Source: an uncultured Candidatus Entotheonella sp. (GTDB taxonomy: Bacteria > Tectomicrobia > Entotheonellia > Entotheonellales > Entotheonellaceae). From it: DNA of 64,000 nucleotides. Below are positions 39,461 through 59,500 of this stretch, one piece after another (positions within the stretch are counted from its first letter, which is position 1; every line of letters starts with the position of its first letter). The notes under the pieces were generated by a model that did no database searches, was not told the DNA's origin, and saw only the letters and a program-made list of their open reading frames with translations. The DNA is taken from the NCBI GenBank assembly GCA_951828535.1, contig OX639990.1, positions 3,335,300 through 3,399,299 of the forward strand, in the 5' to 3' direction. Position numbers and translations under genes: made by a program.

Positions 39461-40897
39461 ATGCCTTCCGAACCCGCGGGCAACGTGCATCTCTCTTATC
39501 TTCGCCGATTGCCGGCGGTCGATGAACTCCTGCGCACGCCGCAAGCGCAACACTGGCAGGCCCGACTGTCGCGGCAAACCGTGACGGACGCTGTTCGCCA
39601 GGCGCTGGAAGCCACCCGACGCAGCATTCTGCAAACCACCGAAGAGGCCGCTTTGGCCGCCTTGCCCGTCGGCTCGGCCGCCGTGCTGTCGCAGGTGGAG
39701 GCCATCCTGGGCGCCGCGCAAGCCCGCGAACTGCAGCGCCTCATCAACGCCACCGGCGTCATCGTGCACACCAATCTCGGACGCTCGCTGCTGGCCGACG
39801 CGGCGGTGGACAACATGCGGACGGTGGCCGCCGCTTACAGCAACCTCGAGTACGACGTTGAACTCGGGGAGCGCGGCACCCGCTACGGGCACCTTGAAGG
39901 ACGTCTGCGCTCCCTCACCGGCGCCGAGGCCGCTCTGGTGGTCAACAACAATGCCGCGGCGGTGTACCTGGCCTTGCAGGCGCTGGCCAAGGGCAGGGAG
40001 GTGATCGTGTCGCGCGGCCAGCTCATCGAAATCGGCGGCTCGTTCCGTATTCCCGACATCATGCGCAGCAGCGGCGCCATCCTGCGCGAGGTCGGCAGCA
40101 CCAACAAGACACATCTGCGGGATTACGCCGCCGGCATTTCGGCCGACGCCGCGCTGTTGTTGCGGGTGCACACCAGCAATTATCGCATCGTCGGCTTTAC
40201 CGCCGAGGTGCCGCGGCATGAATTGGTCGCGCTGGGCCGCGAGCACGGCTTACCTGTCATGGAGGATCTGGGCAGCGGCACGCTGGTCGATCTGCAACCG
40301 TACGGCCTGCACGACGAGCCAACAGTCAACGAGGTGGTCGCCAGCGGCGTCGATGTGGTGACGTTCAGCGGCGACAAATTGCTGGGCGGCCCGCAGGCCG
40401 GCATCGTGGTAGGCAAGGCTGCCTGCGTCGATCAATTGCGGCGCCATCCGATGCACCGCGCCGTGCGGGTGGACAAGTTCACGGTGGCGGCGCTCGAAGC
40501 CACGCTGAAGCTGTACGCCGACCCGCAAAGGGCGCGGCGTCAGATTCCCACCCTGACGATGCTCGGCCTGTCGCCGCGAGACGTCGCGCGGCGCATTCAG
40601 CGGCTGCGGCGCCTGTTGCCGGCCGGCAGCGCCGCAGCCTACCGGCCCCGCGTGATCGACGGCAACTCAGCCGTTGGCGGCGGCGCCCTGCCGATGGCCG
40701 TTCTGCCCACCAAGCTGCTGGCGCTGCAGCCGGAATTCTGCTCGGTCAGCAGCCTCGAACGGCGCCTGCGCTGCCGTCAGCCGGCTATCATCGGGCGTAT
40801 CGCGCGAGACCAACTGCTGCTGGACTTGCGCACCGTTACGGAGCGCGAGATCCCCGAGCTCGCCGCCGCCCTGCACGAACTGGTACCAACGACATGA
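39461..40897 (+). CDS. selA: L-seryl-tRNA(Sec) selenium transferase
   Basis: 478 residues. N-terminal [15 protein letters not shown], then [40 protein letters not shown] and [16 protein letters not shown]; the PLP Lys lies in [16 protein letters not shown]. It converts seryl-tRNA(Sec) to selenocysteyl-tRNA using selenophosphate. Its stop overlaps the selB start by 4 bases (40894-40897). Presence of selAB implies that UGA is read as selenocysteine in this organism, as supported by the two genes at 58.4-59.0 kb. selC and selD are not in the window. Confidence 0.97.
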
Positions 40898-42801
40898 AAC
40901 AGATCGTCCTGGGCACTGCCGGCCATATCGACCACGGCAAGACGAGCCTCATCAAAGCCCTCACCGACATCGACACCGACCGCCTCAAGGAGGAGAAGGA
41001 GCGGGGGATCACCATCGACCTCGGCTTCGCCTTCCTCAACCTGACGGACGAGGTGCAGTTGGGCATCGTCGACGTGCCGGGGCACGAGCGGTTCGTCAAA
41101 AACATGCTGGCGGGGGTTGGCGGCATTGATCTCGTGCTGTTGGTCATCGCCGCTGACGAGGGTGTCATGCCGCAGACGCGCGAGCACCTCGCCATCTGCG
41201 AGTTGTTGCGGGTGCAGGAGGGTCTGGTGGCGCTCACCAAGACGGATATGGTGGAGGCGGAGTGGCTGGAGTTGGTACGCGACGACACCGCCGAATTCCT
41301 GCGCGGCACGTTTCTGGAAGGCAAGCCGATCGTACCGCTGTCCTCACGCACCGGCGAGGGGTTGGAGGCGCTTCTGCAAGCGTTGCGCAACGCCTGCCAA
41401 GCGCTCAGCCCGCGCACGTCCGGCGGCCCGGTGCGTCTGCCCATCGACCGCGTGTTCACCATGCGCGGTTTCGGCGCCGTCGTGACGGGCACCCTGTTTT
41501 CCGGCAGCGTGCGGCTTGAGGATCGCCTGGAGGTGTTGCCGAAGCGTGAACTGGCGCGGGTGCGCGGTCTGCAAGCGCATAGCCGGACGGTCAGCGAGGC
41601 AGTCGCCGGACAGCGCACCGCCGTCAATTTGCAGGGCGTCGAATTGGACGACCTGCAGCGCGGCGACGTGCTGGCAACGCCGGGGCGTTTTCCCACCACT
41701 TACATGCTGGACGTGACGCTGAAACTTCTGGATGACGCGCCGCGCGCCCTGAAGCACCGCGCCCGCGTCCGTTTCCACGTCGGCACCAGCGAGATCATGG
41801 GGCGGGTCATGCTGCTCGACCGCGACGAGATGCGGCCCGGCGAGGAGGTTTGCGTGCAGTTGCACCTGGAGCAACCGACGGTGGCCGCGGCGCGAGACCG
41901 CTACGTGATTCGCAGCTATTCGCCCATCCGTACCGTCGGCGGCGGCGTCATTCTGGACGCCGTGCCCGTGCGGCACCGGCGCCATCGCCCGCAGGTTCTC
42001 GACCAGCTCGCCGTGCTGCGCGACGGCAGTGATGCCGAGGCGCTGGCCGTGCACCTGTTTAACGCCGCGCACGCCGGCCTGCAATGGTCGGACCTCATAC
42101 AACGCACCCCGCTGGAAGACGACGCCTTGCGCCAGGTCGTCCAGGAGGTCATCGAGCGAGGTATCGGCGTCGTGATCGAGGACAACCCGCCGTGGCTGCT
42201 GCACCGCGAGCGCTACGATCAGGCCTGCGCCGAGATGCGGGGGCTGGTGGAGGACTTTCATCACCACAATCCGCTCAAGCCGGCCATGTTCACCGAGGAG
42301 TTGCGCAGCAAATTTCCACGCATGGCGGACAAAGTGTTCAGCGCCATTCTGCGCGACCTGACCGCCGCCGGCGAGCTCGACGTCAGCCGCGACAAGGTGA
42401 AGTTGGCCAGTCATGCGGTCACGCTGTCGACCGAGCGGCAGGCGCTGGTTGATGCCCTGGAACACACGTTTCAGGCGGCCGCTTTTCAGCCGCCGAGCGT
42501 CGAGGAAGCCTTGGCGGCGCAGAGCGGCAAACCCGCTGACGCGCGCGCCCTGTTGCAAGTGCTGGTGGACCAGAACCGGCTGGTGCGCCTGAAGGGCGAC
42601 GTGTTCTACCACAAGGAGGCGCTGGACACGATCGAACAGCGCCTGCGCGCCCACCTCGAAGCGCACCGGGAAATTACCGCCGGCGAGTTTCGGGACATGC
42701 TGGAAATATCCCGCAAGTACGCCATCCCGCTGCTGGAACATTTCGACGGTCAGCGCATCACGCTGCGCACGGGGGACAAACGCATCCTCCGCAACCCCTG
42801 A
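40894..42801 (+). CDS. selB: Selenocysteine-specific elongation factor
   Basis: 635 residues. EF-Tu-like GTPase with P-loop [18 protein letters not shown]2/G3 region [13 protein letters not shown] and [18 protein letters not shown]4 LTKTDMV; beta-barrel domains follow to about residue 340; the C-terminal part carries the winged-helix repeats that read the SECIS hairpin (FREMLEI-like [20 protein letters not shown] near the end). It delivers Sec-tRNA to UGA codons. Translationally coupled to selA. Confidence 0.97.
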
Positions 42802-57859: not shown

Positions 57860-58087
57860 GCCGCATCCCCGTGTTTGATGACTGTCTCGAACGTTCCTGG
57901 CCAAAGGAGCGCGTGTTTTCGGCTCCGGTACGGTGGCAAAACCCCGCACGGTTTGTCAAGCCGAGAATGGCTTGACTTCGCCGGTGCCAGTCCGTAACCT
58001 GCCGCCTCGGTTTCTGACTTCCCGGACAGACTCCGGGAGGTCGGTTCTTGTTCGTGTTCGGCCCATTCAACGGAGAAGGAGCCCCCT

Positions 58088-58393
58088 ATGAAATTCGGTA
58101 GGCGGCGCTTGGCAGCCGCTGCCCTGACGATTGTCCTTGTGGTCGGCGGCCTGGGTTTGGGTACGGCACAGCCACAGGACGAGGGCACGCCGATAAACAT
58201 CAACACGGCCGACGAGGTCGAGTTGATGATGTTGAAGGGCATCGGTGAAGCAAAGGCAAAGGCCATTATCGAGTACCGGGAGGCACAGTCCTTCGAAACC
58301 ATCGAAGACATCATGAAGGTCTCGGGAATTGGCGAGAAGACCTTTGAAAACAACAAGGACCGCATCACCGTTGGGGAGACGGCGGACGAGTAG
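58088..58393 (+). CDS. ComEA-like helix-hairpin-helix protein
   Basis: 101 residues: hydrophobic N-terminal signal/anchor (LAAAALTIVLVVGGLGLGTA), then PININTADEVELMMLKGIGE, the ININTA start of ComEA-type HhH domains, with KAKAIIEYREA and IMKVSGIGEKTFENNKDRIT giving two hairpins. It probably binds DNA at the cell surface or periplasm. ATG 58088 follows GAGAAGGAGCCCCCT. The ArsC-like selenoprotein starts 27 bases downstream, so the three genes may be one transcript. Confidence 0.92.
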   Translation: MKFGRRRLAAAALTIVLVVGGLGLGTAQPQDEGTPININTADEVELMMLKGIGEAKAKAIIEYREAQSFETIEDIMKVSGIGEKTFENNKDRITVGETADE

Positions 58394-58420
58394 AGGCGCA
58401 AGGCCTGCGAAGGAGTGCAC

Positions 58421-58768
58421 ATGAGCCGGCAAGTGGATTGGTACTATCACCGCAAGGGTTGAAGCACCTGCGCCAAGGTTTCCAGGTTCTTGGAGACCCA
58501 TGACGTGACGGTGCAGGACACGATTCCGGCGAGCAGGAAGCTCGGGCTGAGCGATGCGCTGGCATTGGTGGAGCAGGCCGACCGGCTGGTTGTCGCGAAG
58601 GGCAAGAAGCTGACGGAGTTCGATCTGGGCGCCGAATCGCCGGCCCCTGATGCGGTGGCCAAGCTGATGCTGGGGCCCACCGGCAACCTGCGAGCCCCCA
58701 CCCTGCGCGTTGGACGCACCCTCGTCGTCGGCTACAATGAGCAAGTACTGGTTGAGACGTTCGGCTAA
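58421..58768 (+). CDS. ArsC/Spx-like selenoprotein, UxxC active site (in-frame UGA)
   Basis: 115 residues with selenocysteine at 14 (TGA 58460-58462). ATG 58421 follows AAGGAG with a 5-base spacer. MSRQVDWYYHRKG-Sec-STCAK places U in the resolving thiol motif U-S-T-C (Sec14, Cys17), and the same frame continues for 100 codons: VSRFLETHDVTVQDTIPASR, LGLSDALALVEQADRLVVAK, NLRAPTLRVGRTLVVGYNEQ. This is an ArsC-family thioredoxin fold; TLRVGRTLVVGY matches the C-terminal strand pair. A SECIS-like hairpin follows the UGA, and selAB are in the window. A conventional annotation would miss the start or call a pseudogene. Confidence 0.9.
58460..58498 (+). promoter_or_regulatory. SECIS-like element of the ArsC-like selenoprotein
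   Basis: The UGA at 58460 is followed, after 14 bases, by the stem GGTTTCC / GGAGACC (58477-58483, 58492-58498; one G-U pair) with loop AGGTTCTT. The loop resembles the AGGUCU loop of E. coli fdhF SECIS. Confidence 0.75.
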
Positions 58769-58807
58769 TTCCGCGGCAAGGCGCGGGCTGAGAGAAAGGA
58801 AGTGAGC

Positions 58808-59041
58808 GTGGACAAAGAAGTGATCGTCTACAGCAACGTCGGTTGAGGCCCCTGTCACCAGGCGATGGAGTATCTATCGCAGAAGGGGGTCGCGTTTGTG
58901 GAAAAGAATGTCGCCCGTGATCCCGACGCTGTGCAGGAGTTGATCGGCATGGGGTTGCGCTCCCTCCCGGTGGTGGTGATCGGCGAGCAGCGGCTCAGCG
59001 GCTTTAATCCCGCCGCCATCGACGCCGCCCTGGCCTCGTAG
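58808..59041 (+). CDS. Glutaredoxin-like selenoprotein, UGPC active site (in-frame UGA, GTG start)
   Basis: 77 residues with selenocysteine at 13 (TGA 58844-58846). GTG 58808 is preceded by AAGGAAG with a 5-base spacer. VDKEVIVYSNVG-Sec-GPCHQA is the classical glutaredoxin/NrdH active site CxPC-type with Cys16 as partner; continuing in frame, MEYLSQKGVAFVEKNVARDP, GMGLRSLPVVVIGEQRLSGF (cis-Pro TVP-type SLPVV, GF) and NPAAIDAALAS, TAG 59039-59041. Length and every fold element match small glutaredoxins. It starts 39 bases after the ArsC-like selenoprotein. Confidence 0.92.
58844..58889 (+). promoter_or_regulatory. SECIS-like element of the glutaredoxin-like selenoprotein
   Basis: Downstream of UGA 58844: lower stem CCCCT (58849-58853) / AGGGG (58884-58888), upper stem GCGAT / ATCGC (58862-58866, 58876-58880), loop GGAGTATCT. 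Placement, 15 bases from UGA to the upper stem, fits bacterial SECIS. Confidence 0.65.
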
Positions 59042-59086: not shown

Positions 59087-59500
59087 TTAATCGTGCGCCG
59101 CCTCCTCGGTGGCGCCGATCTTGTGCCGCATCGCCCGTCCTTTATCGGCATGCGGGTCTTTTACAAGACCGTATATCTGCCGTCCCTCGTGATCCTCCGG
59201 CAGATGTTCGGTGATTGGAATGCCCTCCTTGTTAACGAACAACAGGCAGTGACAATACTTGTACATCTGCATTTCGTCGCAGGCGCAACGCCAGCGGCGC
59301 AGCTTCGCCTCGGCCGGCTTGTCGGGGTAGAAGTTGCACGGGCACAGCGGCACGCCGACCTCCTCGATATGCCGCGCCAGACCCTCGACAACGGTTTCCG
59401 TGACGCTGCGATCGGGGTGCAGATAGCTGCCTGATTTTTCGGCAAACTTCTCAGCGTACTTTTGCATCTTGGTAATGTTCTTTTCACTCGGCTTGTCCAT
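59087..59500 (-). CDS. Ferredoxin-thioredoxin reductase catalytic-chain-like protein
   Basis: 137 residues from ATG 59500, preceded by AGGAGG. Conserved FTR-beta pattern: HIEEVGVPLCPCNFYPDKPA, then WRCACDEMQMYKYCHCLLF, giving CPC ... CAC ... CHC, the Cys set that holds the 4Fe-4S cluster and the redox disulfide. FTR reduces thioredoxin-fold proteins with electrons from ferredoxin. Facing two thioredoxin-fold selenoproteins, it is their plausible reductant. Plant/cyanobacterial FTR has a partner alpha chain, not found here. Confidence 0.9.
   Translation of the reverse strand: MDKPSEKNITKMQKYAEKFAEKSGSYLHPDRSVTETVVEGLARHIEEVGVPLCPCNFYPDKPAEAKLRRWRCACDEMQMYKYCHCLLFVNKEGIPITEHLPEDHEGRQIYGLVKDPHADKGRAMRHKIGATEEAAHD

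Follow-up and report, generated by a model that had tools for sequence, protein, structure and literature searches.

A predicted selenocysteine glutaredoxin of Candidatus Entotheonella and its conserved neighbour, the catalytic subunit of ferredoxin-thioredoxin reductase

Sequence evidence supports the identification of positions 58808-59041 (plus strand) of the window, a 64,000-nt stretch of genomic DNA from an uncultured Candidatus Entotheonella sp., as a selenocysteine (Sec) glutaredoxin gene, hereafter Sec-Grx, accompanied by a SECIS hairpin and by the Sec machinery of its host. Judging by the Pfam score, the exact coincidence of a TGA with the catalytic Cys column, and the conservation in many genomes, the match is far beyond chance. 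As a whole, the explanation that we prefer, and consider reasonably though not strongly probable, is that of an NrdH-like redoxin with SECIS-directed Sec, reduced by FTRb (the catalytic, or beta, subunit of ferredoxin-thioredoxin reductase) or by thioredoxin reductase (TrxR), and with an ArsC-like protein as its client.

The window sits in a single 3.62-Mb contig of a metagenome-assembled genome (MAG) of a Candidatus Entotheonella relative, estimated to be 92% complete (G000). The sister genome G001, an uncultured Candidatus Entotheonella chromosome and likewise a MAG, encodes a Sec-Grx protein 96% identical to that of the window. The genus Entotheonella belongs to Candidatus Tectimicrobiota. 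Further genomes referred to below include G003, an Entotheonella-family relative, and G116, a Rokubacteria genome.

Reading frame, selenocysteine codon and SECIS hairpin

As originally predicted, the gene opens with GTG (58808), contains a single in-frame TGA (58844-58846, codon 13) and ends with TAG (59039-59041). With the UGA read as Sec at residue 13, the product is a protein of 77 residues with a UGPC active site, VDKEVIVYSNVG-U-GPCHQAMEYLSQKGVAFVEKNVARDPDAVQELIGMGLRSLPVVVIGEQRLSGFNPAAIDAALAS-stop. An AGGA ribosome-binding site lies 7 nt before the GTG (58797-58800, plus strand) and supports this start, as does the ATG with which relatives begin at the matching residue. On the minus strand, a shadow ORF of 263 codons (58067-58858) overlaps the 5' part of Sec-Grx and could mislead gene finders; an internal UGA and, in this case, a GTG start make genes of this type easy for such programs to miss or cut.

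In a set of 37 sequences to which the window gene itself belongs, the codon for residue 13 is TGA in 15 and TGC or TGT in 22; the in-frame UGA aligns with the Cys of homologues, the pattern by which a bacterial selenoprotein is recognized. A TGA-bearing match was found in all five genomes examined from the phylum Candidatus Tectimicrobiota. The 79 Rokubacteria-type relatives of G116 yielded matches at E<=1e-15 in 36 genomes, and each of the 40 matches listed from these has one TGA. Between the window and its sister G001, the codons after the TGA differ by 16 synonymous and 2 non-synonymous changes, indicating that this part of the gene is under purifying selection.

Just 3' of the UGA, at 58862-58880 (plus strand; +18 to +36 from the UGA), lies the hairpin GCGATGGA-GTA-TCTATCGC, in which an 8-bp stem (GCGATGGA/TCTATCGC) carries the apical loop GTA, beginning with a conserved G. 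The Sargasso Sea survey (PMC1088965) describes a bacterial SECIS of this form, whose small apical loop has a conserved G. The best contiguous stem has a mean length of 7.9 bp in the 15 Sec genes versus 3.6 bp in the 22 Cys genes, with mean folding energies of -10.1 versus -2.8 kcal/mol, and codon-preserving randomisation of the window gene gave only 5 versions in 5,000 that fold as well as its actual hairpin. Codons 19-24 are identical DNA in six genomes (0/90 synonymous differences), with variation in the flanking codons. Pairing holds in 93% of cells across 15 distinct sequences, and four of the eight pairs change on both sides; the resulting covariation score was reached by none of 500 shuffles and by no slid version. 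Rokubacteria hold more compensated versions of the hairpin, such as GCGACAGAGTATCTGTCGC. Covariation, absence from Cys homologues and frozen synonymous sites together argue that the hairpin is a bacterial SECIS.

The window's genome also encodes the full Sec machinery. The genes selA (L-seryl-tRNA(Sec) selenium transferase; 39461-40897) and selB (Sec-specific elongation factor; 40894-42801) lie on the plus strand of the window itself, selD is present in the genome, and a tRNA-Sec with anticodon TCA scores 73.9 bits (cut-off 47).

Given a metagenome-type assembly and a family in which Cys homologues are common, the TGA might be a sequencing or assembly error for a true TGC or TGT, or the gene might be dead. 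The identical TGA, however, recurs in independent assemblies of two phyla, which excludes the sequence error that the original prediction had named as the threat to its claim. Together with the conserved SECIS and the purifying selection downstream of the TGA, this conservation rules out both error and pseudogene, and the full Sec machinery likewise speaks against them; we give this reading practically no weight. An in-frame TGA is by itself silent on the residue inserted, and a changed code or a suppressor could have it read as Trp or Cys. TGA nevertheless serves as a normal stop in the window, where it ends 21 of the 43 long ORFs, selA and selB among these, and a code change is thereby ruled out. 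Homologues, moreover, have Cys rather than Trp at residue 13, and the machinery for Sec is at hand, so that the chance of such decoding is minute.

Family, fold and known relatives

With Cys placed at the TGA, Sec-Grx scores 48.7 bits against Pfam PF00462 (Glutaredoxin; cut-off 22.9) and belongs to that family; this match, with a TGA at the catalytic Cys column in many genomes, upholds the prediction of a glutaredoxin-family selenoprotein. As NCBIfam labels, YruB (TIGR02196, 71.2 bits, cut-off 88.55), NrdH-redoxin (TIGR02194, 58.6 bits, cut-off 85.75) and UXX-star selenoproteins (NF041212, 42.7 bits, cut-off 66) were rejected, all scores being under the curated cut-offs. The site had been described as a textbook glutaredoxin active site. 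Sec in place of Cys within the glutaredoxin family stands, but "textbook" is loose, because a CGPC motif is that of thioredoxins, and NrdH/YruB is the branch nearest to the protein.

The AlphaFold model (pLDDT 94.9) has the thioredoxin/glutaredoxin fold with its C/U-x-x-C motif and cis-Pro loop proline; C/U13, C16 and P54 are invariant. The best solved relative in a structure search was 7c10, "Dithiol cGrx1" (TM 0.90, about 40% identity), followed by E. coli NrdH and M. tuberculosis NrdH. To judge from their entry titles, 7c10 and 7c12 ("cGrx1") represent the protein of Clostridium (Alkaliphilus) oremlandii, whose selenoprotein Grx1 has U13 and C16 (PMC4479559; for the protein, Kim et al. 2011, cited there and in PMC13188914). 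Sec-Grx resembles this protein, its top match by both sequence and structure, in the glutaredoxin fold and in having Sec13-x-x-Cys16 at identical residue numbers. It differs in its UGPC motif, in an SGFNP tail as in NrdH, in its FTRb and ArsC-like Sec neighbours, and in its uncultured hosts, Tectimicrobiota and Rokubacteria. With NrdH-redoxin (TIGR02194; 1h75), it shares the fold, an SGF-x-P motif near the C-terminus and an active site that is thioredoxin-like rather than of the GSH type; Sec in place of Cys and the TIGR02194 score under the cut-off set it apart.

Sec-Grx is a member of an already known kind of protein, since the family has been catalogued from the Sargasso Sea survey onwards, with ten sequences there (PMC1088965) and further ones in the later GOS and bacterial genome surveys (PMC2398784, PMC1794560). 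Selenoprotein glutaredoxins have thus been known since 2005, and one, C. oremlandii Grx1, is characterised; Sec-ArsC-like and Sec-FTR proteins are likewise catalogued selenoprotein families. The survey members share with the window's protein the glutaredoxin prediction, UxxC, a bacterial SECIS and PF00462; a linkage to FTRb was not found reported in the consulted parts of the three surveys.

Outside the window, the same genome contains a second Sec-glutaredoxin-like ORF (L084 1361-1561; G000:C1:771360-771560), VRLYKRVG-U-SSCRALEEL..., with a C-terminal extension. It falls under all NCBIfam cut-offs.

The FTRb neighbour and the probable reductant

The sole FTRb gene of G000 (59087-59500, minus strand; CPC-X16-CAC-X8-CHC) is convergent with Sec-Grx at a gap of about 50 nt, as it is in G001; being on opposite strands, the two genes of the window are not co-transcribed. 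FTRb occurs as one gene per genome, and in three of four Entotheonella-family genomes it lies within 2.4 kb of Sec-Grx. In all 17 Rokubacteria-type loci L094-L110, it follows Sec-Grx immediately on the same strand, at a gap of 5-71 nt. It was not found in the fetched flanks of the next two Rokubacteria-type loci (UTGC), of a third (UVPC) or of more distant Sec-Grx clades. Literature searches, conducted mostly by title and abstract, returned no description of a link between FTR and Sec-Grx, nor of selenocysteine in Entotheonella or Rokubacteria. Within the literature searched, the conserved Sec-Grx/FTRb gene pair is the part for which no earlier description was found.

Genome content bears on the same question. 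In profile searches, no TrxB match over the cut-off was obtained in the MAGs G000 and G001 (best in G000, 49.6 versus 343 bits), and a search confined to GshB itself gave no match in G000, a 92%-complete MAG. These results favour FTRb as the reductant here, and the lack of a GshB match in G000 disfavours glutathione-dependent turnover of Sec-Grx. Taken together, gene neighbourhood and genome content suggest that FTRb is probably the partner and electron donor of Sec-Grx.

Alternatively, a genuine Sec-glutaredoxin might depend on glutathione or TrxR in the ordinary way and have no special tie to FTRb, the neighbourhood reflecting a general clustering of redox genes. In favour of this reading, the selenoprotein glutaredoxin of C. 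oremlandii is reported to reduce the selenoprotein MsrA (PMC4479559). A full TrxR gene lies immediately upstream of Sec-Grx in 8 of the 17 loci L094-L110, where TrxR may be the reductant. Elsewhere, low-molecular-weight TrxR scores over the curated cut-off in the genomes G002 and G116, and G003 has a full-length match just under it. Against an ordinary redoxin stand the failure to detect TrxB in G000 and G001 or GshB in G000, as well as the consistent adjacency of FTRb in the Rokubacteria-type loci and its proximity in most Entotheonella-family genomes. On balance we consider this alternative unlikely, though it deserves serious weight.

In its more specific form, the FTRb hypothesis makes the Sec-containing NrdH-like redoxin a substrate dedicated to a [4Fe-4S] disulfide reductase of the ferredoxin type, in a pair conserved across Rokubacteria and Tectimicrobiota that in Entotheonella would replace the NADPH-thioredoxin reductase or glutathione route and feed an ArsC-family selenoprotein. 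We advance this version tentatively, at somewhat less than even odds. If true, it would amount to an electron chain in Entotheonella from iron-sulfur to selenium to selenium. The conserved neighbourhood provides a family of selenoproteins whose biochemistry is little known with a partner that can be tested. It also suggests a possible route of disulfide reduction for bacteria in which neither thioredoxin reductase nor glutathione synthetase is detectable, the Entotheonella lineage being an example.

Two known systems offer partial parallels. PDB 7pwe, the glutaredoxin/ferredoxin disulfide reductase of Desulfotalea psychrophila, is a natural one-chain fusion of Grx and FTRb-type domains; here the genes are separate, and the similarity is distant only. 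A selenoprotein FTR catalytic subunit has been described in the GOS survey (PMC2398784) and is modelled by the NCBIfam family FtrB_double_U, from which the all-Cys FTRb of the window differs in scoring under the cut-off. In the FTRb of G003 (L078; G003:C122:8501-8752), a TGA replaces the codon for the final Cys of CHC, a position of the active-site disulfide. With CHU in place of CHC this FTRb resembles the described selenoprotein FTR, and the likely partner of Sec-Grx in that genome is therefore itself a selenoprotein.

The upstream selenoprotein and the proposed mechanism

A second selenoprotein gene had been predicted to adjoin Sec-Grx directly, and this was confirmed: the gene 39 nt upstream (58421-58768, plus strand; UxxC, UGA at 58460-58462) belongs to the ArsC family (NF041106, 122.7 bits, cut-off 85) and has its own hairpin downstream of its UGA. 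The pair, with a TGA in both genes, is kept in all four genomes of the Entotheonella family. The pairing of Sec-Grx with Sec-MsrA in Clostridium offers an analogy that makes the ArsC-like selenoprotein plausible as a client of Sec-Grx.

We propose that Sec-Grx acts as a small dithiol-type glutaredoxin or NrdH-like redoxin in which Sec13 would be the attacking and Cys16 the resolving residue. Recoding of the UGA would be steered by the SECIS 18-36 nt downstream and executed by SelA, SelB, SelD and tRNA-Sec of the host. Sec13 would attack an oxidised partner, likely the ArsC-like selenoprotein just upstream, to form a mixed selenylsulfide that Cys16 would resolve. Neighbourhood and genome content suggest that the resulting Sec-Cys bond would be re-reduced by the neighbouring FTRb, or by TrxR in genomes that have it, and not by glutathione.

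Upstream of the selenoprotein pair and in the same direction as Sec-Grx lies a gene for a ComEA-like helix-hairpin-helix protein whose N-terminus is hydrophobic (58088-58393, plus strand). This gene stands directly upstream of the pair only in the two Entotheonella-type genomes.
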